From: Salinicola sp.
Lineage (GTDB): Bacteria > Pseudomonadota > Gammaproteobacteria > Pseudomonadales > Halomonadaceae
Assembly (NCBI GenBank): GCA_002695065.1
Contig: NZNW01000076.1
Location: 1 to 53,398 of the forward strand
Length of the DNA stretch: 53,398 nucleotides
Direction of reading: 5' to 3'
The notes beneath the pieces were generated by a model. It was not told the origin of the DNA and did not search any database. It saw nothing but the letters and a program-made list of their open reading frames with translations. Position numbers and translations under genes: made by a program. Shown in pieces: positions 2,975-14,662 of this stretch. The stretch's first letter is position 1. Each line of letters begins with the position of its first letter.

Positions 2975-3895
2975 CTATTCGATCAGCAGCCGGTCGCGGC
3001 GGCGATCCTCCGGTGCCTCGACCAGCGGATCGCGGCCGCCTCGCAGGATCGAGTTGCCCTCGAACAGGGTGCGCTGGTCGATGGGCGCGGGATCGAGCCA
3101 GTCGGCGGCCTGCATCTGGCCGCTCTTGCCGTAGACGGCGAGGGCGTTGTCATAGGTGACCTGGCGTACCACGGTCTCGGCAATCCCGGACTCGAGCGCC
3201 AGCCGAGCGGTCTTGGGCACGCCGAGACAGTCCGAAATCCCCCAGTCGCAGGCGCTGTCGACGATGATCCGGTCGCCGCCATACTGCTTGAGCAGCTCGA
3301 CCATCCGCGCGTTGCCCATCTTGGTCGACGGGTAGATCGAGAAACCGGCCCAGTAGCCGCGATCCAGCGTCTCACGCACGGTTTCCTCGTTGTTGTGGTC
3401 GATGACGACCCACGAGGGATCGAGCCCCATCTCCTCGCAGACGTCCATCGAGCGCGAGGTGCCGCGTTTCTTGTCGCGGTGCGGCGTGTGCACCATCACC
3501 GGCAGTTCGAGCTGCCTGGCCAGTGCCAGTTGGGCGCGAAAGTACTTGTCCTCGAGTGGGGTCTGCTCGTCATAGCCGATTTCGCCGATGGCGACGACGC
3601 CCTCCTTGAGGGCGAACCGTGGCAGCCACTCCATTACACCCTCCGCCAGCGCCTCGTTGTTGGCTTCCTTGGAGTTGAGGCCGATGGTGCAGTAGTGGCG
3701 GATCCCGAACTGGCCGGCGCGGAAGCGCTCCCAACCCACCAGGGAGGAGAGGTAGTCGACGTAGGTCCCGACGAAGGTGCGAGGTTGTCCGACCCAGAAG
3801 GCGGGTTCGATCAGAGCCACGATGCCGGCGGCGGCCATGGCCTCGTAGTCGTCGGTGGTGCGAGACACCATGTGGGCGTGGGGATCGATGAACAT
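2975..3895 (-). CDS. eboB: EboB, TatD-like metal-dependent hydrolase
   Basis: 306 residues, TIM-barrel amidohydrolase of the TatD type. The metal-binding positions are all visible: HxH at His6/His8 (DPHAHM), Glu105 in AIGEIGYDE, His136 in MVHTPH, His167 in VVIDHN and Asp213 in IVDSACDW. TatD proteins are usually 3'-5' DNases or esterase-like hydrolases, but this subfamily travels with eboA and its substrate is unknown. The ATG lies one base after the eboA stop codon, with GAGG nine bases upstream inside eboA, so the two are translationally coupled. With eboC, D, E and F found in the next 6 kb, the assignment to the Ebo cluster is strong. Cytoplasmic; no signal peptide. Confidence 0.88.
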   Translation of the reverse strand: MFIDPHAHMVSRTTDDYEAMAAAGIVALIEPAFWVGQPRTFVGTYVDYLSSLVGWERFRAGQFGIRHYCTIGLNSKEANNEALAEGVMEWLPRFALKEGVVAIGEIGYDEQTPLEDKYFRAQLALARQLELPVMVHTPHRDKKRGTSRSMDVCEEMGLDPSWVVIDHNNEETVRETLDRGYWAGFSIYPSTKMGNARMVELLKQYGGDRIIVDSACDWGISDCLGVPKTARLALESGIAETVVRQVTYDNALAVYGKSGQMQAADWLDPAPIDQRTLFEGNSILRGGRDPLVEAPEDRRRDRLLIE

Positions 3896-3896
3896 C

Positions 3897-4763
3897 TCAG
3901 GCGGCCTCTTTCAGGGTGAGGTGGTTCCAGTCGAGACGGCCGTCCGCGACCAGTGCGGTGATATCCGGCACCGTCTTGAGCAGGTCCCGGGCGCGAGGGG
4001 TGTCGGCCGCCATCAGCGCCAGCACCGCCGCACTGCGCTGCTCCGGCACCCCTGCCAGCGCACGCTGCAGGGCAGCGTAGGCCGAGACGCGCTCGGCGAA
4101 AGGCCCGACGCAGCGCCACAGCTCCGGGCTCACCTCGCGCCCGGCGGCCCAGCGTTCCCGGGCGTAATCGAGCAGGATGGTGGCCAGCTCAGCGTTAACC
4201 CGCGTGTCCAGGCCGACGATGGGGGAAAGCCGGCTGCCGACGAACAGCGCCTTGAGCACCATGTGGTTCCAGCGATGCTCGTCGAAGTGGTCGCGGGGAT
4301 AGGGGTTGCCATGAACGATGGATTCGAACACCGCACGCATGTTGGAGCGCAGCCCCTCGCCTACGGCGTCCGTTAGAGACTCGGGGCGGGGGTAGAGGGC
4401 CAGGCCCCGATAGAGCGTGATCAATTCGCGGGCATCGGCGGTCCGGACCAGATCCCGGAACGTATCCGAAAACGGGCGGTTGCTCTCGAAGGCGAGCAGG
4501 GCAGTAATACGGGCCGCTCCATCGAGACTCCAGCCCTCGGGGCGCCAGCCAGGATAGCTCTGGTTCGCCATCGCCAGGTCCTGTGGCGTCAGCGTCAGGT
4601 CCTGCTTGCCGAGGCGCCGCGGCACCAGGCCGAGAAACAGATGGAGATCCTTTTCGTTGCCGCTCTGGCCCAGCGACGTGTACTGCTCGACGAGCCAGCG
4701 AGCTTGATCCGGGGCCTGGCGACAGGTCCAGTCGCGCAGTAGCTTCAGCGGTGTAACGGGCAT
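3897..4763 (-). CDS. eboA: EboA domain protein
   Basis: About 288 residues, alpha-helical, with no recognisable catalytic motif. The core HRWNHMVLKALFVG near the middle matches the conserved 'WNqMvLKaLF' block I associate with EboA-domain proteins, and the immediate partner eboB supports this. I chose the ATG at 4763 (GGA seven bases upstream, protein starting MPVTPLKLLRDW) over an in-frame GTG at 4796, which has no ribosome-binding site. Biochemical role unknown; in cyanobacteria the cluster was genetically linked to moving scytonemin precursors to the periplasm. It is divergent from eboF across a 300-bp spacer that probably holds both promoters. Confidence 0.8.
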   Translation of the reverse strand: MPVTPLKLLRDWTCRQAPDQARWLVEQYTSLGQSGNEKDLHLFLGLVPRRLGKQDLTLTPQDLAMANQSYPGWRPEGWSLDGAARITALLAFESNRPFSDTFRDLVRTADARELITLYRGLALYPRPESLTDAVGEGLRSNMRAVFESIVHGNPYPRDHFDEHRWNHMVLKALFVGSRLSPIVGLDTRVNAELATILLDYARERWAAGREVSPELWRCVGPFAERVSAYAALQRALAGVPEQRSAAVLALMAADTPRARDLLKTVPDITALVADGRLDWNHLTLKEAA

Positions 4764-5011
4764 GTAAACATCCGGGCCAGTGGTTTCAGAAGCCACTTTA
4801 TCGGGTCGCGAAAAGAATCCCCAGGCTCAATTAACTGACCGGTCGAGGGGCCAGGATCCAATGCTGAATCGCGCTGATCGGATGACTTTTCTGCTGCGAT
4901 GATTCGCCGGCCTCTTCACTTTTCTGGTGATAATTTCTCAAAATCGGGCTTCGATCGTCGCGCCGATTGTCTCTCCTTATTCCAACTGATATGCAGTCTT
5001 TACAGATCGTT

Positions 5012-5024
5012 GCGATGGGATCGC
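5012..5024. promoter_or_regulatory. Dyad GCGAT-GGG-ATCGC in the eboA/eboF divergent spacer
   Basis: Perfect 5-bp arms with a 3-bp centre. It lies just upstream of a possible eboF -10 element TAAAAT at 5031-5036, with TTGCGA at 5010-5015 as a possible -35 (spacing 15, short). A repressor here would cover the promoter. It is a short dyad in GC-rich DNA, so chance occurrence is possible. Confidence 0.3.
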
Positions 5025-5063
5025 GACGGCTAAAATTCATCCTCGAATCGGCAGGCCGGCGCC

Positions 5064-6500
5064 ATGCACAACACCCTGGTAATTCTCGTGGTCGGGCTGA
5101 CACCCCAACTGGTCGGTGACCATACGCCGGCCCTGAAACGGCTCGCCGAACGGGGCGGATTGCGGCCGTTGAACACCGTGACACCGGCGGTGACCTGCAG
5201 CGTTCAAGCGACGTTGCTGACCGGCTTGCCGCCAGGGCGGCACGGCGCCGTGGCCAACGGCTGGTACTTCCGGGATCTTGCCGAGGTCTGGTTCTGGCGC
5301 CAGTCCAACCGCCTGATGGCGGGCGAGAAGATCTGGGAAGCGGGGAGACGGAAGAATCCCGACTTTACCTGCGCCAAACTGTTCTGGTGGTACAACATGT
5401 ATTCGAGCGCCGACTGGAGTGCCACGCCGCGGCCGATGTATCCCGCCGACGGCCGTAAATTACCCGATCATTACACCTATCCGTCGGATCTCCACGACGA
5501 ACTCGACGCCAGGCTGGGCACCTTTCCGCTGTTCACCTTCTGGGGGCCAATGGCGGATATCTCGTCGAGTCGTTGGATCAGCGATGCGACGCGCCATGTC
5601 ATGGAAACCCGCGATCCCACCCTGACCCTGACCTATCTGCCGCATCTGGACTACAACCTTCAGCGCCTGGGGCCGGATGTTGCCCATCCCGAGTTGCAGC
5701 GCGATCTCCAGGAGGTCGATGCGCTGTGTGGTGAACTGATCGACGCGGCCGAGCGGGAAGGGCGTCGGGTCATCGTGGTCTCCGAGTACGGGATCACGCC
5801 GGTTAGCGAGGCCGTCCATATCAATCGCGCGCTGCGTGAGGCCGGCTTGGTCGCGGTGCGTCGGGAACGGCAGCAGGAGCAGCTCGACGCCGGGGCGTCG
5901 CGAGCCTTCGCGGTGGCGGATCATCAGGTCGCCCATGTCTACGTTCGCGATCCGGAAGAGATTCCGAAGATCAGGGCGCTGCTGGAAGGGCTGGAGGGCG
6001 TGGAAGCGGTCTGGGGCGACCGCGAAAAGCGCGAGCAGGGGCTCGACCACCCCAACGCGGGAGAGCTGGTGGCGATCGCCCAACCGGATCGCTGGTTCAG
6101 CTACTACTACTGGCTGGATGATGCCCGAGCCCCGGACTATGCGCGCACCGTCGACATCCATCGCAAGCCGGGCTACGACCCGCTGGAGCTGTTCTTCGAT
6201 CCCGCGCTGAAGTCGCCCAAGCTGGCGGCGGGATGGCGTCTCGCCAAGCGGCGGCTCGGCATGCGTCAACTGCTGGACGTCATCTCGCTCAAGGACACGG
6301 CGCTGGTCAAGGGCGCCCACGGGCGGCTGACCGACGATCCCTCCATGGGGCCGCTGGTGATCTCGTCGGAAGCTGGCCTGCTGCCCGCCGGGCCGGTCGA
6401 GGCGACGGACTTCAAGGCGCTGGTATTGGCTCACGTTTTCGAAGGCGACGATGAGGATATGGCGTACCGCCGGACCGCCGTCGATAACGCCAGCGCCTGA
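5064..6500 (+). CDS. eboF: EboF, alkaline-phosphatase/nucleotide-pyrophosphatase superfamily protein
   Basis: 478 residues of the phosphodiesterase/nucleotide pyrophosphatase branch of the alkaline phosphatase superfamily. The N-terminal block PAVTCSVQATLLTGLPPGRH carries the nucleophile position (Thr44) and the typical TG-P-HG sequence. The usual first metal Asp (DG) is replaced by VVGLTP (10-14). The second-metal 'DxxxH' reads Asp196...Gln200, and the canonical DHG reads Glu241-Tyr242-Gly243. His419 (GAHGR) is kept, and Asp286-His287 lie in VADHQVAHVY. I recall VGLTP and SEYG as characteristic of this subfamily, so it may be a specialised or altered enzyme rather than a decayed one. No signal peptide. 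Divergent from eboA and convergent with eboC. The substrate is unknown; a prenyl or sugar phosphodiester is a guess from the neighbours. Confidence 0.85.
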   Translation: MHNTLVILVVGLTPQLVGDHTPALKRLAERGGLRPLNTVTPAVTCSVQATLLTGLPPGRHGAVANGWYFRDLAEVWFWRQSNRLMAGEKIWEAGRRKNPDFTCAKLFWWYNMYSSADWSATPRPMYPADGRKLPDHYTYPSDLHDELDARLGTFPLFTFWGPMADISSSRWISDATRHVMETRDPTLTLTYLPHLDYNLQRLGPDVAHPELQRDLQEVDALCGELIDAAEREGRRVIVVSEYGITPVSEAVHINRALREAGLVAVRRERQQEQLDAGASRAFAVADHQVAHVYVRDPEEIPKIRALLEGLEGVEAVWGDREKREQGLDHPNAGELVAIAQPDRWFSYYYWLDDARAPDYARTVDIHRKPGYDPLELFFDPALKSPKLAAGWRLAKRRLGMRQLLDVISLKDTALVKGAHGRLTDDPSMGPLVISSEAGLLPAGPVEATDFKALVLAHVFEGDDEDMAYRRTAVDNASA

Positions 6501-6508
6501 CGTACGGC

Positions 6509-6550
6509 AAAAAAAGGCCGGGCCCGCATCACCATGATGTGGGTTCGGCC
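6509..6550 (-). terminator. Rho-independent terminator for eboC, probably bidirectional with eboF
   Basis: A 16-bp stem (left arm 6516-6531, right arm 6535-6550, three G-U pairs) with a 3-nt loop. Seven A residues at 6509-6515 make a U7 tail when read leftward from eboC. The rightward side (eboF) has only a weak T-rich tail. Confidence 0.85.
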
Positions 6551-6614
6551 TGGTCCGTTTGGCGAAGATCGTCCTGCCACCGGCGGCGTCCGCCACCGGT
6601 TGGCGTGTGTCGAT

Positions 6615-7514
6615 TCAGGTCCCGGACGTCACCCGTTGCAATGCCAGCGTCGCGGCGAAGGCCAGGGCACCCAGCAAGGCCATCCCGCTGGCGCCCATGG
6701 CCGCCATCAGCGTGGCGTCATAGAGCGAAATCGCGGCGATCAGGCCGACGACGGCACGCGGTACGTCCCCCGCAGCGCGGCGGGATAGCCACAGCAGGCA
6801 GCGCGCGCCCCAGACCAGATAGCCCAGCCACAGGATCAACGCCAGCAGCGACGGTTCGGGACCGGTCAGCATGGCGGCCAGCATCAGCGCGACCGGCACC
6901 GCCAGCACGGCCAACGGCCAGGCGGCGCCCAGCCGATCGTAGGCCTCCTGGCGGGCGGCGTAGGTCAGGCCGATGACGTGACAGGCCAGGCCGACGGCAC
7001 CCCAGACCACCGCCGCATCGAGGGTGTCGGCAACCATCAGCGCGGCGGTCAGGTAGGTCAACAGTCGGCACGCACCCATCAACAGCGGGCTCCAGCCGAT
7101 CCGCTTGTGCCACCAGTCGTAGCCCAGGATCGCGACGACCAGCGCCAGGCCGGTGATTCCGGCGGGCGGATGGCTCAGGAACAGCAGCCCGCTTCCCGAC
7201 GCCAGCATCGCGGCGCCCAGCAGCGTGACGGTCAGGCGGTCGACGTCCCCCCGGGGGATGGGCCGATCGGCGCGTTCGCGGGCATCGATCTCGGCATCGC
7301 AGGCGTCGTTGAGGTACATGCCGCCGAGATAGAAAAGCGTCAATGCCAGCAGCGACGTCCAGAGCGCGGGGGTATGCCACAGCGCGGCACCACCGGACCC
7401 CGCCAGCACGCCGCCGGCCAGCACGTTGCCCCAGACCGTGGGGAGATTGGAAACGCGCCCCAGCTCCAGCCAGATCCGGGCGCTACGCTTCCTGGCCGGC
7501 CCCGCCGTGGTCAC
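6615..7514 (-). CDS. eboC: EboC, UbiA-family prenyltransferase
   Basis: A 299-residue integral membrane prenyltransferase. The first aspartate-rich motif is intact as NDACDAEID (Asn69, Asp70, Asp73, Asp77) followed by RADRPIP, and the remaining sequence forms about eight to nine hydrophobic helices. Enzymes of this family attach an isoprenoid diphosphate to an aromatic or other acceptor in the membrane. A longer frame opens at 7739, but the GTG at 7514 overlaps the eboE stop as GTGA and gives the normal family length, so I prefer it. In the Ebo cluster EboC is the only clearly membrane-bound enzyme and could make a lipid-linked carrier; that is inference. Last gene of eboD-E-C. Confidence 0.88.
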   Translation of the reverse strand: MTTAGPARKRSARIWLELGRVSNLPTVWGNVLAGGVLAGSGGAALWHTPALWTSLLALTLFYLGGMYLNDACDAEIDARERADRPIPRGDVDRLTVTLLGAAMLASGSGLLFLSHPPAGITGLALVVAILGYDWWHKRIGWSPLLMGACRLLTYLTAALMVADTLDAAVVWGAVGLACHVIGLTYAARQEAYDRLGAAWPLAVLAVPVALMLAAMLTGPEPSLLALILWLGYLVWGARCLLWLSRRAAGDVPRAVVGLIAAISLYDATLMAAMGASGMALLGALAFAATLALQRVTSGT

Positions 7515-8695
7515 GCCAGCTGTCGTGCGACCCAGGTCAGCTCGCGGGATATGGCCGCTTCCACGCTCTCCGTGCGCAGAGTCTCCGGTAATACCTGCCA
7601 TGTGTAGGTCTCCACTTCCAGGTGCTGCGAGATCGGTCGCTGGCGATGCAGGGCGAGGATGTCGGTAAGGAACGACTGGGTGGTCTCGAACGGCGCTATC
7701 GTGTCCGCGAAGATCGGCACGTGGAAGTGCACGCGCCACTCTTCGCCGTCGGCTCTGGCGTCGTCGGCCAGCGCCTCGGGCAGGTCCGCGTATCGCACCA
7801 GTCCGTCTGCGCTGGAGACCACGACCTGATGCAGATAGGTGCGCTCGCAGAACGGTGCCAGCGCGTCGCGCTTCGCCGCGTCGATCCGCGGAACGCGCAG
7901 TGCGGCGCTCAGCTGCAGCTTGTGGATCGGAATGGCTGCCGTGCGCAGGGCCTCGATGCTGGCGGCCGGATCCTCGAATTCCACCGCGGCGTGGCAGACG
8001 TCGTAGCAGACACCCAGATGCCGCGGCAGCACCAGTTTCGCTTCATCGCGGGTCAATCCGCAGAGTTCTCCCAGACGGTTGGCGGCCGCATCGGAATAGA
8101 GATGGTCGCGGAAGAACGCGACCGTTTCGGCGATGGTCTCCAGGAAGCAGTGGGGCTCGGGCTCCAGCGCGATGGCGATGGTGACCTGGGTCTTCTGGGC
8201 GAGCTTGACGCAGTGGGCCGCCGCCTTGAGCAGGTTTTCCGCCATCGCCGGCGCAGCCCCTTCGGCCAAAGGCTTGTAGGTGCCGGGTACGGTGCTCAGG
8301 CTCAGGGTGTCGCCGGCGGTGCCCAGTTCCGCCATCAGGTCGGCGAGCCAGCAGGTGTAGTCGAGCCGGGCGCGCTGCTTCCAGTCGGGTTGGTAGACGG
8401 CCTGCTTGACCGGGATGCCGTGGAAGGGACCGAACGGGAAGCCGTTCATGGTCACCACGCGATAGTTCTCCCGCGCGAGGATCTCCTTGAGTTCGGCCCG
8501 TGCGCCGGGGGCGCGGAGCTCCTCCAGCGCCTGGGCAGACAGGCGCAGACCCACGCCGAAGGTCGCCTCGGGGCAGACGGTTTCCCGCACTCGCTTGACC
8601 GGCCCGAGCAGCGCCTCGCGCACCGCTTCCCAGGTCTGAGTCGGGTGGATGTTGAGACAGTAGGTCAGTTGACCCAGATCATCAGGCAGCTGCAT
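7511..8695 (-). CDS. eboE: EboE, xylose-isomerase-like TIM barrel protein
   Basis: 394 residues with the sugar-phosphate isomerase/epimerase-type TIM barrel pattern. Candidate metal-ligand stretches are ALEPEPHCF (Glu), CYDVCHAAVEFED (Asp, His) and YLHQVVV. The protein begins with a strand, LTYCLNIHPTQTWEAV, and the barrel extends nearly to the C-terminus; no signal peptide. Its start overlaps the end of eboD by 14 bp and its stop overlaps the eboC start by 4 bp, so the three genes form one tightly coupled unit. The family acts on sugars or inositols, but this member's substrate is unknown. Proximity to the sugar-phosphate-cyclase-like EboD suggests both act on a carbocyclic or sugar-derived intermediate (inference). 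Confidence 0.86.
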   Translation of the reverse strand: MQLPDDLGQLTYCLNIHPTQTWEAVREALLGPVKRVRETVCPEATFGVGLRLSAQALEELRAPGARAELKEILARENYRVVTMNGFPFGPFHGIPVKQAVYQPDWKQRARLDYTCWLADLMAELGTAGDTLSLSTVPGTYKPLAEGAAPAMAENLLKAAAHCVKLAQKTQVTIAIALEPEPHCFLETIAETVAFFRDHLYSDAAANRLGELCGLTRDEAKLVLPRHLGVCYDVCHAAVEFEDPAASIEALRTAAIPIHKLQLSAALRVPRIDAAKRDALAPFCERTYLHQVVVSSADGLVRYADLPEALADDARADGEEWRVHFHVPIFADTIAPFETTQSFLTDILALHRQRPISQHLEVETYTWQVLPETLRTESVEAAISRELTWVARQLA

Positions 8696-9974
8696 GGTGG
8701 TTTGCCTCTTCGCGCAGCCAGTCGATCGCGGCTGTCATGGTGGTTTCATCGATCTCGTGGAGGTCGTGTCCACGCCCCAACCCGGCCAGCAGCGTGATCG
8801 TCAGCTCGCCTCCGAGGTGCTGCTGAAACTCCCGGAGCCCCGCCATGATGGCAAGACGACCGTCGTCGCCGAGCTCCATCAATTGGGTGTGGAAGACCGG
8901 CAAGCCCAGGCGCTTCAACAGCCACACGACGCGCCACTCGGCGCCGGCGGGCAGCAGGCCTGTCAGCACGGAGTAGCGCGTGTCCAGGGCGATGCCAATG
9001 GCGACGGCCTCGCCGTGGCCGATGCCGTGGTGGGTCAGGGCCTCGAGCTTGTGGGCCGCCCAGTGGCCGTAATCCAGCGGCCGTGACGAACCCTGTTCGA
9101 ACGGGTCGCCGCCACGGCCGATCTGGCGCATGTGCAGCTCGGCGCTGCGGCGGATCATCGCTTCCTCGGTGCGCGGGTCGAACTCGGCCAGCGAATCGGC
9201 GTTGGCTTCCAGCCAGTCGAAGAAGGCACCATCGCGGATCAGCGCCACCTTGATCGCTTCGGAGATACCGGCCAGCCGGTCGCGGCGCGAGAGCGTGCTC
9301 AGGAAGTCGAAGTCGTTGAGCACCGCCCAGGGCGGGGCGAAGGTGCCGATGAAGTTCTTGTAGCCCTTGAAGTTGACGGCATTCTTGACCCCGACGCCGC
9401 TGTCGTTCTGCGCCAGCACCGTGGTGGGTAGCCGGATCAGGCGGACGCCGCGATGGCCCATGGCGGCGGCGAGCCCCAGCGCATCCAGCACCGCGCCGCC
9501 GCCGATGACGATGACGTAGGCGTGACGATCGACACCGTGGCGCCGGATGCCCTCCAGCACGCCGTCGATCGTCTCCAGGTTGGCCTTCACGGACTCCCCG
9601 CCCGGCACGGTGATGGGCGCCGCCAGCAGGGTCATGCGGCTGGCGTGGGCGGCGAAGTAGGCATCGATACGCCGGTTCAGGTCCGGCCAGGTGGCGGCAA
9701 CGCCGGCATCGACGTAGATCAGGCAGCGGTGGTTCTTGCGGGGTTCGCGGCGCGAGATGACATCGGCCAGCAGGGCGTTGTCGGGAGAGAAGATTTCCCG
9801 GGTGAAGGCCACGGGATAGTCGTAGGCGACGGAAAAGCGCTGCCAGTGAATGTCCGACGACGCTGGGTGCCGGTTGGCCTCGGGACGTTGCACGGGCTGC
9901 CGGGGCGGCGCGAGTGGCGACGAGTCGAGGGCGAAGTCGCCATCGATCGAGAACGATAAAGCGGGCCGGTTCAT
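8682..9974 (-). CDS. eboD: EboD, 3-dehydroquinate-synthase-like sugar phosphate cyclase
   Basis: 430 residues, longer than AroB (~360). It has the sugar phosphate cyclase fold: NAD-binding GGGAVLDALGLAA (158-170), PTTVLAQNDSGVGVKNAV (183-200), KNFIGTF, and the metal ligands Glu239 (GISEAIKVALI), His304 (DYGHWAAHK) and His320 (GHGEAVAIG). All catalytic-site families are present, so it should be active, but the extra N-terminal ~45 residues and altered loops separate it from housekeeping AroB and place it with EboD/EEVS-like enzymes. Product unknown. First gene of the eboD-E-C unit; AGG about ten bases before the ATG. About 265 bp separate it from abgB, which runs in the same direction. Confidence 0.87.
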   Translation of the reverse strand: MNRPALSFSIDGDFALDSSPLAPPRQPVQRPEANRHPASSDIHWQRFSVAYDYPVAFTREIFSPDNALLADVISRREPRKNHRCLIYVDAGVAATWPDLNRRIDAYFAAHASRMTLLAAPITVPGGESVKANLETIDGVLEGIRRHGVDRHAYVIVIGGGAVLDALGLAAAMGHRGVRLIRLPTTVLAQNDSGVGVKNAVNFKGYKNFIGTFAPPWAVLNDFDFLSTLSRRDRLAGISEAIKVALIRDGAFFDWLEANADSLAEFDPRTEEAMIRRSAELHMRQIGRGGDPFEQGSSRPLDYGHWAAHKLEALTHHGIGHGEAVAIGIALDTRYSVLTGLLPAGAEWRVVWLLKRLGLPVFHTQLMELGDDGRLAIMAGLREFQQHLGGELTITLLAGLGRGHDLHEIDETTMTAAIDWLREEANHHAAA

Positions 9975-9995
9975 GAAGTTATCGCCTGCGTAAGG

Positions 9996-10023
9996 GGTCC
10001 GAAAACGAAAAAGCGGACCGCTT
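9996..10023 (-). terminator. Overlapping inverted repeats upstream of eboD (terminator or operator)
   Basis: AAGCGG-A-CCGCTT (10011-10023) is a perfect 6-bp dyad; read leftward it is followed by a T-rich TTTCGTTTTC. GGTCCG at 9996-10001 also pairs with CGGACC at 10014-10019. It lies 22-49 bp before the eboD start, so it could end abgTAB read-through or be an operator for eboDEC. Confidence 0.4.
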
Positions 10024-10240
10024 CATTAAGGGGCGATCGCGCTTGGCCTCTAGCCTTGGTTTCACGGGGTTAGCTTCGGGGCTGGACGGGGCGGGCGACA
10101 AGAATGGTTCTTTTGCTACGAAGTATGAGTGGCGTATCGGTTTTTCGGGTGTATCGAGGCTCATCAAACGGTAACAAAGGCGGTGATGGGTGGCATTGAC
10201 CCTGTCCGCCGCCTCGGTTTCTTGTCTCGATGACTTGCGA

Positions 10241-11704
10241 TCACCCTTTCAGCGGCGAGGGCGTGACATCGTCGGGAATCGGGCAGCGATAGGGCTCGCG
10301 TCGCGTGGCCCTGTCCAACTCCGCCCGCGCCTCGGCCAGGATGGCCGGATCCTGCATGAGCGCGACGGCGGTGCCGGCCATCACCTTGGCCGCCTGCAGC
10401 ATGCCCTTGTGGCCCAGCGAGCTGTGCCCCTGGGCGACCACCTGCCAGGTGTGCAGCGGCGTGCCCAGGGCGAAGCAGTTGACGTAGCACTGGGCGGTCG
10501 GCACCACCCAACTGACGTCGCCGACATCGGTGGAGCCATACATCAGTTCGTCGCTGGCGCTGTAGGGGGCGATGTCGTCGACCAGAGCCTTGCCTTCGAG
10601 CCCGTCGACATACGCCTCTGCCGCCTCGCCGCCGGCGCTGAGGATATTGGCGTAGGTGGTACGCAGATCGTCGTCGCTGACCGTCGCCTTGATGCGTGCC
10701 CCGTAGGCTTGCTCCCCGGCGTCATGACGCGGCGGGCCGAATGCCTCGAATCGTGACTGCATCAGCCGTTCCAGGGTGCGATTGGGGCGGTAGCCGGAGC
10801 ACGCCTTGTCGAACGTCATCTCGACCTGGGTCCCGGTCATCAGCGCCGCGCCCTCGGCGATCTTCTGGACACGCTCGAAGATCGCCCGGACGTCGCCCAT
10901 GCGCCGGGCACGCATCAGGTAGAGCACCTCGGCATCGGCCTGGACGACGTTGGGGGAGGCGCCGCCGGTGCGGGTGATCGAGTAGTGCAGGCGTGCGTCC
11001 GGCACGATGTGCTCGCGCAGATAGTTGGCGCCGACGTTCATCAGCTCCACGGCGTCCAGCGCGCTGCGGCCGAGATGGGGCGAGTTGGCGGCGTGGGCGG
11101 AGGTGCCCGTGAAGCGGAAGTAGGCCTGGATATTGGCCAGCGTCGGCGTCGAGAAGATGGCGTTGAACGCCTGTGGATGCCAGGTGAGCGCGGCGTCGAC
11201 ATCGTCGAACACCCCCTCGCGCACCATGAAGGTCTTGCCGGAGCCCCCCTCTTCGCCGGGGCAGCCGTAGAAGCGCACGGTGCCGGAGAGCGCGTTGTCG
11301 GCCATATAGTCACGCACGCCGACGGCGCCGGCCAGCGCGGCGACGCCTAGCAGATTGTGGCCGCAGCCATGACCATTGCCGCCGGGGACCAGCGGCTCGG
11401 CTTCGCTCGCTTCACCGCGCTGGCTGAGTCCGGCCAGGGCGTCGTACTCGCCGAGCAGCGCAATGACCGGCTTGCCACTGCCGTAGCTGGCGACGAAGGC
11501 GGTCTCGATGCCGGCGATGCCGCGCTCGACCTGAAAACCTTCGGCTTCCAGCGCGTCGCTCAGCCTCGCCGCAGAGCGGGTCTCCTCGAAGCGGGTCTCG
11601 GCCAGTTCCCACACCTGATTGGCATGATCGATGAAGCGGTCGCGCTTGCTCTCGATCAGGGTGTCGAGCCGCCGGATCGTGGCGTCAGTCGCGTTCATAT
11701 CCAT
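10241..11704 (-). CDS. abgB: AbgB-like p-aminobenzoyl-glutamate hydrolase subunit B (M20 peptidase)
   Basis: 487 residues, M20-family amidohydrolase. Zinc-site sequences are GNGHGCGHNLLG, the Glu pair in GCPGEEGGSGK and the late histidine in VAQGHSSLGHKGM, with the dimerisation domain in the middle (GTSAHAANSPHLGRSA). In E. coli AbgA and AbgB form a heterodimer that cleaves p-aminobenzoyl-glutamate, a folate breakdown product, to p-aminobenzoate and glutamate. Length and motif variants match AbgB rather than AbgA. The ATG at 11704 is preceded by AAGGA; the frame is open to 11830 but that would run into abgA. Only 8 bp separate it from abgA, which fits an obligate complex. Confidence 0.88.
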   Translation of the reverse strand: MDMNATDATIRRLDTLIESKRDRFIDHANQVWELAETRFEETRSAARLSDALEAEGFQVERGIAGIETAFVASYGSGKPVIALLGEYDALAGLSQRGEASEAEPLVPGGNGHGCGHNLLGVAALAGAVGVRDYMADNALSGTVRFYGCPGEEGGSGKTFMVREGVFDDVDAALTWHPQAFNAIFSTPTLANIQAYFRFTGTSAHAANSPHLGRSALDAVELMNVGANYLREHIVPDARLHYSITRTGGASPNVVQADAEVLYLMRARRMGDVRAIFERVQKIAEGAALMTGTQVEMTFDKACSGYRPNRTLERLMQSRFEAFGPPRHDAGEQAYGARIKATVSDDDLRTTYANILSAGGEAAEAYVDGLEGKALVDDIAPYSASDELMYGSTDVGDVSWVVPTAQCYVNCFALGTPLHTWQVVAQGHSSLGHKGMLQAAKVMAGTAVALMQDPAILAEARAELDRATRREPYRCPIPDDVTPSPLKG

Positions 11705-11712
11705 GAAAAACG

Positions 11713-13065
11713 TTATCCTTGAAGCGTCTCGGAAGGTCGGCGGTGAAGGGCCGGATCGTCTGCCTGCAGGGCCAGATGGGCCAGGGTGTGGATGGCCAGC
11801 GGCAGTACGTCCTCGTCGAAATCGAAGCATTGATGATGGTGGCCGGCGGCGAGTTCGGTGCCGAACACCATGTAGGTGGCCAGCCCGCCGCGTTCCCGCA
11901 CGCGCTGCATCATGGTGGTGGCGTCCTCGGAGCCGGAAGGGCGATTTTCGGTGGCGATCACGCTGTCGATGCCGGGCAGGCCGGCGATGTGCCCCTGAAT
12001 GAACTCGACCAGCTCAGGGCTCGGTTCGCAGTTGCGCGCTTCGCCGGCGAGGCGGTACGCCATCTCGACGCCCTGCATCTGGGCCGCGCCGCGCAGCACG
12101 GCCAGCGCTCGGCGCTGCATCTCATCGTCGATCTCGCTGGTCTCGCCCCGGGTTTCGAGCTTGAGCGTGGCGGTGCCGGGCACCACGTTGCGGCCGCTGC
12201 CGGCGCTGAGCACGCCGACGTTGATGCGCGAGGCGCCGGCGCTGTGGCGCGGAATGGCATGCAGTCCGAGGGCGGCTTGGGCGGCGGCCAGCAGGGCGTT
12301 GCTGCCCGCTTCCGGATTGGCGCCGGCGTGGGCGGGTACGCCGGTGAAGGTGACATCGAGCTTGGTGGTGGCGAGATAGCCGTTGTGGCCGCAGACGACC
12401 GTTCCCTTGGGCACCCCGGTGCCGATATGGGTGGCGATGAAGATATCCACGTCATCGAGCACGCCGGCTTCGACCATCGATCTCGCGCCACGTACGCCCT
12501 CCTCCGCGGGCTGGAAGATCAGCTTGATGCGGCCGCTCAGATGCGGCATCAGCTCGACGAACAGACGCGCCAGGCCCAGCCCGATGGTGGTATGACCGTC
12601 ATGGCCACAGGCATGCATCATGCCGGCGTTGCGGGAGGCGAATCCCTCCCGGCTGGGCCGGTGGTCGTTGTCACTGGACTCATCGAGATCGAGCGCATCG
12701 AGATCGACGCGATAGGCCAATGTCGGCCCCGGGCGGCCGGTATCCCATTCCGCCACCACGCCGGTGTAGCCGCCGGCGAGGGCCGGCAGCCAGCGTTCGA
12801 CGGCGCCCTGGTCGCGGGCGCGCTCGAGCGCCTGAACCAGCACTTCGGGCTCGGGCACGCCCATGCGGCTATCGGCGTCGATTACGTCGCGGCCGAGGCT
12901 GACCCGATAGCCGAGCCGATCCAGCTCTTCGGCAACGATCGAGGCGGTGCGGAACTCGACCCAGCCGGACTCGGCATGGCGATGGAAATCCCGTCGCCAC
13001 TGGGTCAACTGCGGAATCAGCGCGTCGATCGCTGGGGCCAGTTCTGGTTCGGTAACGGTACTCAT
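11713..13065 (-). CDS. abgA: AbgA-like p-aminobenzoyl-glutamate hydrolase subunit A
   Basis: 450 residues, M20 family. Zinc ligands lie in MHACGHDGHTTIG, in FQPAEEGVRGA and in the C-terminal GHHHQCFDFDED region; the lid domain contains GVPAHAGANPEAGSNALL. It is the partner of AbgB in splitting p-aminobenzoyl-glutamate. The ATG at 13065 has GGAG nine bases upstream and is preferred over upstream in-frame starts. The gene sits 61 bp downstream of abgT and 8 bp upstream of abgB, so the order is T-A-B instead of the A-B-T of E. coli. Cytoplasmic. Confidence 0.88.
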   Translation of the reverse strand: MSTVTEPELAPAIDALIPQLTQWRRDFHRHAESGWVEFRTASIVAEELDRLGYRVSLGRDVIDADSRMGVPEPEVLVQALERARDQGAVERWLPALAGGYTGVVAEWDTGRPGPTLAYRVDLDALDLDESSDNDHRPSREGFASRNAGMMHACGHDGHTTIGLGLARLFVELMPHLSGRIKLIFQPAEEGVRGARSMVEAGVLDDVDIFIATHIGTGVPKGTVVCGHNGYLATTKLDVTFTGVPAHAGANPEAGSNALLAAAQAALGLHAIPRHSAGASRINVGVLSAGSGRNVVPGTATLKLETRGETSEIDDEMQRRALAVLRGAAQMQGVEMAYRLAGEARNCEPSPELVEFIQGHIAGLPGIDSVIATENRPSGSEDATTMMQRVRERGGLATYMVFGTELAAGHHHQCFDFDEDVLPLAIHTLAHLALQADDPALHRRPSETLQG

Positions 13066-13126
13066 GGTGACGTTCTCCGCGTATTGGATGTCTTGATGCG
13101 CTTGCCCACAGTCGTGTCCTGTCGCC

Positions 13127-14662
13127 TCAAGAGGGCAGATAGGTGGTGATGCCCGGGCCATAGGGAAGCCCCAGCAGGTAGAACGCCGTCAGCAACAGGA
13201 TCCAGATCCCCAGAAATGCCAGGGTGTAGGGCAGCATCAGCGACATCAGCGTGCCGAGGCCGGCGTTCTTGTCGTATTTCCGGATGAAGGTGAGCACCAC
13301 GATCATGTAGGGATTGAGCGGCGAGATGATGTTGGTCGATGAGTCGGCGATGCGATAGGCGACCTGGACGAAGGCGGGGTGATAGCCGAGCTGCATGAAC
13401 ATCGGCACGAACACCGGGGCTTCGAGTGCCCACTTCGCCGAGCCGCTGAAGATCAGCAGGTTCATGCAGGCGGTGAAGACGATGTAGCAGAGGATGACCG
13501 GGAACCCGGTGAAGTCCATGGCGGTCAGCAGGTCGGCACCGTTGACCGCGATCCAGGTGCCGATGTGGGTCCAGTTGAACCAGGCGATGAACTGCGAGGC
13601 GGCGAAGATCAGCACGATGTAGCTGCCCAGGTCGCGCATCGCCTCGGCCATGTTCTCGGACACGTCGCGCGAGCGCTTGATGCGACCCACGGTGATGCCC
13701 CAGGTCACGCTGACCGTGATGAAGAAGAACAGGATGATCGGAATGATGCCGCTCAGGAACGGCGACGGAATCAGCTCGCCATCGGGGCCGCGCAGCGGCG
13801 AGTTCGGCCAGAACAGCAGCGTGGCGATGGCAGCGACGTAGATCAGCGCGGCAATGCCGGCGTTGCGAAGACCGCGGCGGGCATTTGCCGGCTCGCTGCT
13901 TTCGACCTGCTCGACGTCGCCCTGATAGGTGCCGAGGCGCGGTTCGATGACGCGCTCGGTGACGACGGCGGCCACGATGGTGAGCACGAACACGGAGACG
14001 CAGTTGAAGTACCAGTTGTCCACCGGTGTCACCATCATGTCGGGGCTGACGATGCGCGCCGCCTCGGTGGAAATGCCCGACAGCAGCGCATCGGTCCCGA
14101 CGATCAGCAGGTTGGCGGTGAAGCCCGCGCCGGCGCTGGCGAATCCCAGCGCCAGGCCGGCGATCGGATGGCGGCCAAGGGAGTGGTAGACCATCGCCGC
14201 CAGCGGCGGCAGCAGGATCAGCGAGGCGTCGGAGGCGACGTTCATCATGATCCCGGTAAACGCCACGGTGTAAGTCACCAGCCGTTTGGGTGCCGAAAGA
14301 ATGGTATGGCGCACCAGGGTCTCCAGCAGCCCCAGCTTTTCGGCCAGGCCGATACCCAGCATCATCGACAACACCAGCCCGAGCGGCGCGAAGCCGGTAA
14401 AGTTATCGAGCATCGAGTCGAGAATGAACTGGATACCCTCGGCGGAGACCAGGCTGCGAATCGCCTCTACCTCGCCGCTGCCGGGATGTTCGACAGTGGC
14501 GCCGGCGAGGGCGAACAGCACCGATGCCACCAGCACGGCGGCAGCCAGCATGACGAAGATCATGAAGGGGTCGGGAAGCCGGTTGCCGAAACGCTCGATG
14601 GCGTTCAGCAGCCGGATCGACAGCCGCGGGCGAGCGGCGTCACGGGACGCGGTCGCTTCCAT
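13127..14662 (-). CDS. abgT: AbgT-family p-aminobenzoyl-glutamate transporter
   Basis: 511 residues, close to E. coli AbgT (508), with about 11-12 hydrophobic segments. Family-typical features include the cytoplasmic N-terminus, RFGNRLPDPFMIFVM, the re-entrant segment GFASAGAGFTANLL and the C-terminal repeat GSAKWALEAPVFVPMF. AbgT proteins import p-aminobenzoyl-glutamate; some homologues instead export sulfonamides and p-aminobenzoate using the proton gradient. Linkage to abgA and abgB supports import for breakdown. AGGAG six bases before the ATG is a strong ribosome-binding site. First gene of the abgTAB unit, divergent from the LysR gene across a 292-bp spacer. Confidence 0.9.
   Translation of the reverse strand: MEATASRDAARPRLSIRLLNAIERFGNRLPDPFMIFVMLAAAVLVASVLFALAGATVEHPGSGEVEAIRSLVSAEGIQFILDSMLDNFTGFAPLGLVLSMMLGIGLAEKLGLLETLVRHTILSAPKRLVTYTVAFTGIMMNVASDASLILLPPLAAMVYHSLGRHPIAGLALGFASAGAGFTANLLIVGTDALLSGISTEAARIVSPDMMVTPVDNWYFNCVSVFVLTIVAAVVTERVIEPRLGTYQGDVEQVESSEPANARRGLRNAGIAALIYVAAIATLLFWPNSPLRGPDGELIPSPFLSGIIPIILFFFITVSVTWGITVGRIKRSRDVSENMAEAMRDLGSYIVLIFAASQFIAWFNWTHIGTWIAVNGADLLTAMDFTGFPVILCYIVFTACMNLLIFSGSAKWALEAPVFVPMFMQLGYHPAFVQVAYRIADSSTNIISPLNPYMIVVLTFIRKYDKNAGLGTLMSLMLPYTLAFLGIWILLLTAFYLLGLPYGPGITTYLPS

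Follow-up and report, generated by a model that had tools for sequence, protein, structure and literature searches.

A complete six-gene ebo cluster in Salinicola and a tentative reading of its function as synthesis of a prenylated cyclitol lipid

Introduction

The ebo genes encode six protein families, EboA to EboF, and range from plastids to Pseudomonas (PMC5133447, PMC6282210). The ebo operon described for eustigmatophyte plastids, Phycorickettsia, Bacteroidetes and cyanobacteria encodes the same six families; six-gene operons are known in plastid genomes and Phycorickettsia, and the plastid genes stand amid unrelated ones (PMC5133447, PMC6092422). Clusters with one reversed gene have been described, and the idea of a prenylated cyclitol product was already put forward by the 2016 ebo authors (PMC5133447, sections 3.2 and 3.7). 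In Nostoc, the EboA, EboB, EboC, EboE and EboF families are encoded inside the scytonemin operon, with eboD nearby, and a role in export to the periplasm was reported: each ebo mutant studied (eboD was not analysed) retains scytonemin monomer in the cytoplasm (PMC6282210). A full ebo cluster is also part of the EDB (‘edible’) cluster of Pseudomonas fluorescens NZI7 (PMC6282210), which is tied to indole compounds (PMC9655573), and the EboC homologue Ubi-297 of marine Flavobacteria farnesylates quinoline acids (PMC9235831). Here, we describe an ebo cluster at positions 2975–9974 of a 53,398-nucleotide contig of Salinicola sp. (NZNW01000076.1, GenBank assembly GCA_002695065.1), the whole of which is called the window below.

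The Salinicola cluster is a further instance of this already known cluster type. As in plastids, the six genes stand amid unrelated ones, but their order is eboD-eboE-eboC, reversed eboF and eboA-eboB, in contrast to ABCDEF in the plastid/Phycorickettsia-type operon, and the Salinicola EboC scores below the NCBIfam EboC cut-off. Unlike the Nostoc and EDB clusters, the block has no scytonemin or indole-compound genes recognized near it; by analogy with Nostoc, a role in periplasmic export may be supposed for Salinicola. Like Ubi-297, the Salinicola EboC belongs to the UbiA superfamily, carries an Asp-rich motif and is 299 amino acids (aa) long (PMC9235831), but the two come from distant lineages. 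No report joining Salinicola with ebo was found in the literature searched, which consisted mostly of papers open without subscription.

Results

Identification of the ebo cluster

By NCBIfam and Pfam profile searches together with the list of frames, six open reading frames at 2975–9974 were assigned to all six Ebo families, and the block is almost certainly a complete ebo cluster. The original prediction, made from the DNA letters, had recognized these six families here, in a halomonad-like genome and next to abg genes. This was borne out: the genome is that of a Salinicola, and on one side of the block (window 10241–14662) lie genes for a pair of M20 amidohydrolases and for a transporter of the AbgT family. 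The minus strand carries eboD (8682–9974; sugar phosphate cyclase of the EboD clade, 430 aa), eboE (7511–8695; xylose-isomerase-like TIM barrel, 394 aa) and eboC (6615–7514; UbiA-superfamily prenyltransferase, 299 aa), followed by eboF on the plus strand (5064–6500; alkaline-phosphatase-superfamily (NPP) fold, 478 aa), and then again on the minus strand by eboA (3897–4796; EboA-domain protein, 299 aa counted from GTG, with an in-frame ATG 33 bases further in) and eboB (2975–3895; TatD-like metallo-dependent hydrolase family, 306 aa). Since eboF lies on the plus strand between two minus-strand groups, the block is not one operon. A shared motif in the intergenic region from which eboA and eboF diverge (4797–5063) was considered and rejected: this region is poorly conserved and aligns badly among 16 Halomonadaceae.

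For eboC, the start was placed at the GTG at 7514, which overlaps the eboE stop, as the listed start at 7739 falls within eboE; with this start, the alignment to the EboC profile begins at residue 15. Genes for LpxL and DUF4870 were considered as ebo partners and rejected: in two further Halomonadaceae genomes (L150 and L151) and in an ebo-less Salinicola genome (G007) they are found with each other but not with ebo, and they are counted as flank.

For comparison, we used 83 loci, namely the window, two further loci and 80 named ones. These 80 ranked highest among at least 530 loci in similarity to the EboE of the window, so that nearly all are from Proteobacteria.

Properties of the Ebo proteins

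EboD matched PRK06203 with 564 bits (cut-off 333) and the aroB model with 214 bits, below its cut-off of 305. In a tree built by a careful method, 33 EboD rows, taken out of the 77 loci with EboD, formed one group (support 100/99) apart from six 3-dehydroquinate synthase (DHQS) rows, including the AroB of the same genome, and three C7 cyclases; long branches were seen for 5tpr, 3clh, L043 and L044. In the alignment, EboD is without the ‘DKK’ stretch of DHQS and bears GHWAAH. The identification of EboD as AroB was ruled out by the low aroB score and the separate clade, in agreement with the original prediction, which had set the EboD clade against AroB. As a point of nomenclature, PRK06203 is named ‘3-dehydroquinate synthase’ and includes this EboD (8682–9974) though it is not AroB; the EboD genes of the plasmids examined carry the same name.

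EboF belongs to the NPP fold by profile (PF01663, 214.6 bits, cut-off 23) and is predicted to keep this fold. Compared with type I phosphodiesterase/NPP proteins (Xac NPP, 2gsn and 7n1s), however, four of six aligned residues of the metal site are replaced: D, H, D and H of NPP are V10, Q200, E241 and Y242 in EboF, the last His being placed by reading and not by alignment, while T44 and D196 are retained. The compared positions are taken by us to be zinc ligands. The full canonical set of di-zinc residues is not present in EboF. All rows that have a residue at those columns (74–76 of 77) show these replacements, and the EboF signature is common to the 77 rows wherever they are not gapped. As judged from the sequence, the replaced site speaks against the published view of EboF as an ordinary phosphate hydrolase.

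The EboC protein matched PF01040 with 67.7 bits (cut-off 34.2), showed seven hydrophobic segments in a simple scan and kept the N, D, D and D of the NDxxDxxxD stretch in 33 rows. In the annotated records examined, EboC-like genes on plasmids carry the label ‘UbiA family prenyltransferase’ only. EboA passed the EboA_domain model NF035938 with 157.8 bits (cut-off 50), as the original prediction had expected of an EboA-family protein, and remained below the cut-off of 320 for the stricter EboA_family model NF035937 with 220 bits. EboA is predicted to be an all-helical solenoid, with a TPR/HEAT helical-repeat fold as a candidate; against solved structures, a sequence search gave no match at E 10, and a profile search stayed at chance level. 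EboE scored 431 bits against NF035939 (cut-off 250) and showed the conserved motifs; a five-row profile of EboE found nothing among solved structures at E 0.001. EboB matched PF01026 (TatD_DNase) with 60.5 bits (cut-off 27) and the TatD subfamily model TIGR00010 with 39.7 bits against a cut-off of 206, and is therefore not classed as a TatD nuclease; its closest solved chain is AF_1765 (3guw, 75.5 bits). None of the other five proteins is as well conserved in the genus as EboB, with 88–98% identity in 16 Salinicola relatives and 78–86% in loci L060–L071 and L074–L079. Conserved columns of both EboD and EboB hold residues which we take to be metal ligands of their superfamilies.

Recurrent neighbours of ebo in relatives

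We then compared the neighbours of ebo, with the 16 Halomonadaceae loci (window included) kept apart from the 67 others. Hidden Markov models (HMMs) of seven recurrent partner families were built from the same loci as were counted, and two weak matches below 100 bits, both in L078, were removed. At least one of the seven families was found in 50 of the 67 loci: a GSDH-type protein in 34 (within 2 kb of ebo in 33), cytochrome c in 32 (within 2 kb in 29), TMEM220 in 30 (all within 2 kb), VTT/DedA in 20, isopentenyl-diphosphate isomerase (idi) in 12 (within 2 kb in 10), a VioB-like piece in seven (within 2 kb in six) and a ferritin-like protein in six (within 2 kb in three). Except for the VioB-like piece, one member of each family was named by Pfam or NCBIfam. 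The distances between partners and block lie below those of a uniform distribution, which served as the reference in place of random loci (P from 0.004 to 7e-30), although loci that are related cannot count as independent.

Among the 20 VTT/DedA proteins, 14 are separate (13 within 2 kb) and six are fused to EboD, with the VTT domain preceding EboD within a single frame (L044, L066, L069, L071, L074 and L076). The fusion was supported by Pfam in all four proteins tested (L044, L066, L076 and a Salipiger plasmid) and by our own HMM in L069, L071 and L074 (46–56 bits); it requires three changes on the tree. An apparent fusion of TMEM220 to EboD in L095 was rejected, as it consists of two overlapping frames on opposite strands.

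Two of the less frequent neighbours may be noted in their own right. A large protein near ebo, which is presumably VioB-like, has no Pfam match (L044 641–7201, L066 5146–8087 and five more loci), and the ferritin-like protein occurs in six loci.

Biosynthetic genes elsewhere in the Salinicola genome

The original prediction had seen no biosynthetic partner for the block. This is correct for the neighbourhood, as none of the seven partner families was found in the 16 Halomonadaceae loci, but not for the genome. The genome-wide search for polyketide genes that it had called for detected a 2550-aa type I polyketide synthase (PKS) on contig C19 (L162 473–15078). Its neighbours there are an AONS-like gene, a gene of the sulfatase family and a pair of genes for capsule polysaccharide, of which one is KpsS-like. 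A second cluster on contig C12 (L147 9264–16813) encodes an EEVS-like cyclase, an ROK kinase, Zn-dehydrogenases, an SDR, a TIM barrel and an MFS transporter, and is flanked at either end by AraC-type frames that resemble each other. On contig C95 (L153 9128–11033), idi adjoins a UbiA-family gene that exceeds no NCBIfam family cut-off. Because the PKS, the EEVS-type cluster and the idi-UbiA pair all lie away from ebo, ‘alone’ describes the neighbourhood only.

The cyclase on C12 is the third sugar phosphate cyclase of the genome and comes closest to ValA/EEVS (371 bits). Nothing exceeding 34% identity to it was found in the other 17 Salinicola genomes, 16 of which have two cyclases, one at the ebo place and one elsewhere, while G007 has one. 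The EEVS-type cluster is therefore strain-specific among 18 Salinicola and was rejected as a general ebo partner. No condensation domain of a nonribosomal peptide synthetase was found in the genome of the window (the control was positive in four of 14). A search for TMEM220 there gave no match, but its control was silent too, so that TMEM220 may still be present.

Discussion

Proposed function of the Ebo proteins

We tentatively propose, with a probability of roughly 0.45, that the Ebo proteins make a membrane lipid, a prenylated cyclitol, which assists the outward movement of small molecules. EboD would close a sugar phosphate, probably C7, into a cyclitol-type ring, which EboE, a TIM barrel, and EboB, of metal hydrolase fold, may remodel, and the membrane protein EboC would attach the prenyl chain. 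EboA may serve as a helical-solenoid scaffold keeping the enzymes at EboC, and EboF, with an NPP fold devoid of the usual metal site, may bind or process a phosphate-bearing substrate by other means. The lipid would then be turned over in the membrane by a protein of the DedA/VTT type, which some species have as a fusion with EboD and which Salinicola would supply from elsewhere, and the lipid would aid small molecules in reaching the periplasm. That a prenyl lipid crosses the membrane is suggested by the DedA–EboD fusion and the idi neighbours in relatives, and proteins of the DedA family are C55-P flippases (PMC12893004). In the literature searched, we found neither a link between ebo and DedA nor a description of EboF as a pseudoenzyme, and the term ‘DedA’ does not occur in the two main ebo papers. 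In a bolder form of this proposal, Ebo would yield carrier lipids of a new, prenyl-cyclitol class, served by a dedicated DedA-type flippase (in several lineages joined to EboD), by an isopentenyl supply gene in some species and by EboF as a zinc-less helper of phosphodiesterase fold, with Salinicola keeping only the core and borrowing the flippase and the isoprene supply from the cell; this we regard as rather doubtful.

Several observations weigh against the lipid proposal. The family assignment of EboC is less certain than the others by its sequence: the EboC equivalog is the top NCBIfam model, but the score of 103–104 bits is far below the cut-off of 250, with the SCO3242 family near behind at 96. 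In trees of EboC with the UbiA paralogues of the window's genome, a single EboC group was recovered in 0% of 200 bootstrap trees, and a paralogue stood among the EboC rows, two changes being forced by the starred branches; a variant with one out-of-frame paralogue (L001) gave one EboC group in 42% of 200. Since the paralogue branches amount to 7–10 changes per column, these trees are not trusted in either direction. Partner families were absent from 17 of the 67 loci, some of which were ended by contig ends. As none occurs in the Halomonadaceae loci, the DedA, idi, GSDH and cytochrome neighbours speak for Ebo in the relatives and not directly for the Salinicola cluster. The single VTT neighbour tested (L060) matched Pfam VTT and gave 34.8 bits for UptA, below the cut-off of 250, so that the VTT neighbours are assigned to family only. 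As far as the sources considered extend, a lipid-bound form of the scytonemin monomer was not observed in Nostoc (PMC6282210), and the substrates of Ubi-297 are aromatic quinolines, with no cyclitol reported (PMC9235831). The original prediction had taken the block to suggest a self-contained pathway to a prenylated carbocycle or sugar-like lipid, rather than an accessory to one natural product. A prenylated cyclitol product agrees with EboD and EboC and with the idi- and DedA-type genes found near ebo in relatives; the exclusion of an accessory role does not follow, given the partners found near ebo in the majority of the other loci.

Other explanations were weighed against this proposal. The Ebo proteins may instead form a membrane complex, with EboA as a scaffold on EboC and EboB, which moves or hands over a metabolite directly and needs no lipid. 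An EboCAB complex has been proposed (PMC6282210), the all-helical solenoid predicted for EboA is a shape common in scaffolds, although such a role is conjectural here, and EboF is unlike a normal hydrolase. The retention of the presumed metal ligands in EboD and EboB and of the Asp stretch in EboC is, however, enzyme-like, the presence of idi and DedA near ebo in relatives accords with a lipid, and Ubi-297 has prenyltransferase activity (PMC9235831); direct transfer is thus considered unlikely. We judge it similarly unlikely that Ebo makes a free prenylated aromatic product, quinoline- or indole-like, in place of a carrier lipid. The farnesylation of 8-HQA and quinaldic acid by Ubi-297 (PMC9235831), the formation of indoles from tryptophan by the EDB cluster in Escherichia coli (review, PMC9655573) and the VioB-like (a name we assume) and ferritin-like proteins near ebo would agree with such a product. 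On the other hand, no maker of an aromatic ring was recognized among the annotated neighbours of the window block, which cover part of the flank, the in vitro work concerned only the substrates offered, and the scytonemin ebo mutants all accumulate one same intermediate (PMC6282210).

The frequent GSDH and cytochrome c genes close to ebo in the non-Halomonadaceae loci, and a pyrroloquinoline quinone (PQQ) dehydrogenase at a distance of one gene from eboB on the Salipiger plasmid, raise the idea that the product is a prenylated redox carrier linking an exported PQQ-type dehydrogenase, cytochrome c and the membrane. Both families are absent from all 16 Halomonadaceae loci, the Salinicola genome has its GSDH, 30% identical, away from ebo, export of GSDH is a reading of its first residues, and redox activity of the product is putative; this idea is accordingly a good deal less probable than the two preceding ones. 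Finally, the block might be a decaying or housekeeping shikimate/quinone set, with EboD as a spare AroB and EboC as a spare UbiA. The name given to EboD by PRK06203, the position of EboC below its cut-off and the several interrupted-looking ebo frames of one Salinicola strain (L037/L054) could be taken in this sense. EboD, however, scores below the aroB cut-off, the AroB of the genome is separate and groups with DHQS, and EboA is kept in 17 of 18 Salinicola genomes. The spare-AroB view of EboD is largely refuted by the EboD tree, and such a set is highly improbable. Compared with these alternatives, synthesis of a prenylated cyclitol lipid is the reading we prefer. In Salinicola, the six ebo genes stand without any of the partner families that accompany ebo elsewhere, and the genus offers a simple setting for the shared chemistry.

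Distribution and history of the cluster

When the best 80 of at least 530 loci were ranked by likeness to EboE, the first 13 comprised 12 Salinicola and one uncultured Halomonas, the next two were Modicisalibacter, and mostly Rhodobacterales followed. In a sample of 97 genomes that did not include Modicisalibacter, which has ebo, EboA was present in 17, all of them among the 18 Salinicola; it was detected in none of 43 from other genera of the family and none of 36 from the rest of the order. The order eboD-eboE-eboC, reversed eboF, eboA-eboB was identical in all 16 Salinicola relatives whose sequence at this site was read, and is therefore not due to chance. Across the 83 loci, 35 besides the window showed this order (15 Halomonadaceae, many of the same species as the 16 relatives, and 20 others), and a profile-based recount gave 16 Halomonadaceae (window included) and 19 others; Modicisalibacter and many Rhodobacterales are included.

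A joined tree of EboB, EboD, EboE and EboF was built by a quick method (LG+G4) from the 66 of 83 loci having all four, and was rooted on L043/L044, a pair that did not come out as one side. All 16 Halomonadaceae rows fell into one group (SH-aLRT 100), next to a Rhodobacterales group (98 jointly), with further alphaproteobacterial rows outside both. This suggests a transfer of ebo between Halomonadaceae and alphaproteobacteria, whose direction can only be conjectured from the tree; subsequent inheritance within Salinicola is the best explanation of its later history. A recent arrival judged by base composition was rejected, as the G+C content of the block (66.4%) is like that of the flanks (65.1 and 66.2%).

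The ebo-less Salinicola G007, a close relative, gave no match to EboA, EboE or EboD, and window bases 2984–10234 are replaced there by approximately 28 bases (L146 6022–6050). This clean empty site indicates that the block is dispensable. As more distant Salinicola carry the block at the same place, the simplest account is that G007 lost it or had it replaced. The identities of the flanks to the window are uneven (97–98% for LpxL, DUF4870 and AbgT, with LpxL at 98%; 95% for pirin; 87–88% for amh1 and amh2), so that recombination with an ebo-less allele is possible. G007 and the ebo-bearing Salinicola thus form a natural pair with and without the cluster.

Some loci deviate from the common pattern. 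On a plasmid of Streptomyces sp. NBC_01244, a lone eboE lies beside type II polyketide genes (L132 9968–11146), with no other annotated ebo genes in 21 kb. In Salinicola tamaricis F01 (L037/L054), eboA, eboC, eboF and eboD match only partly, with 55–91% of their length in one piece, as if interrupted, and sequencing errors are a possible cause. Curli-type genes lie between the LpxL-like gene and eboB in L028 (1358–5497, with curlin repeats and CsgG by Pfam) and in L037 (9622–13623), and a gap of similar size separates the same two genes in L031 and L033.

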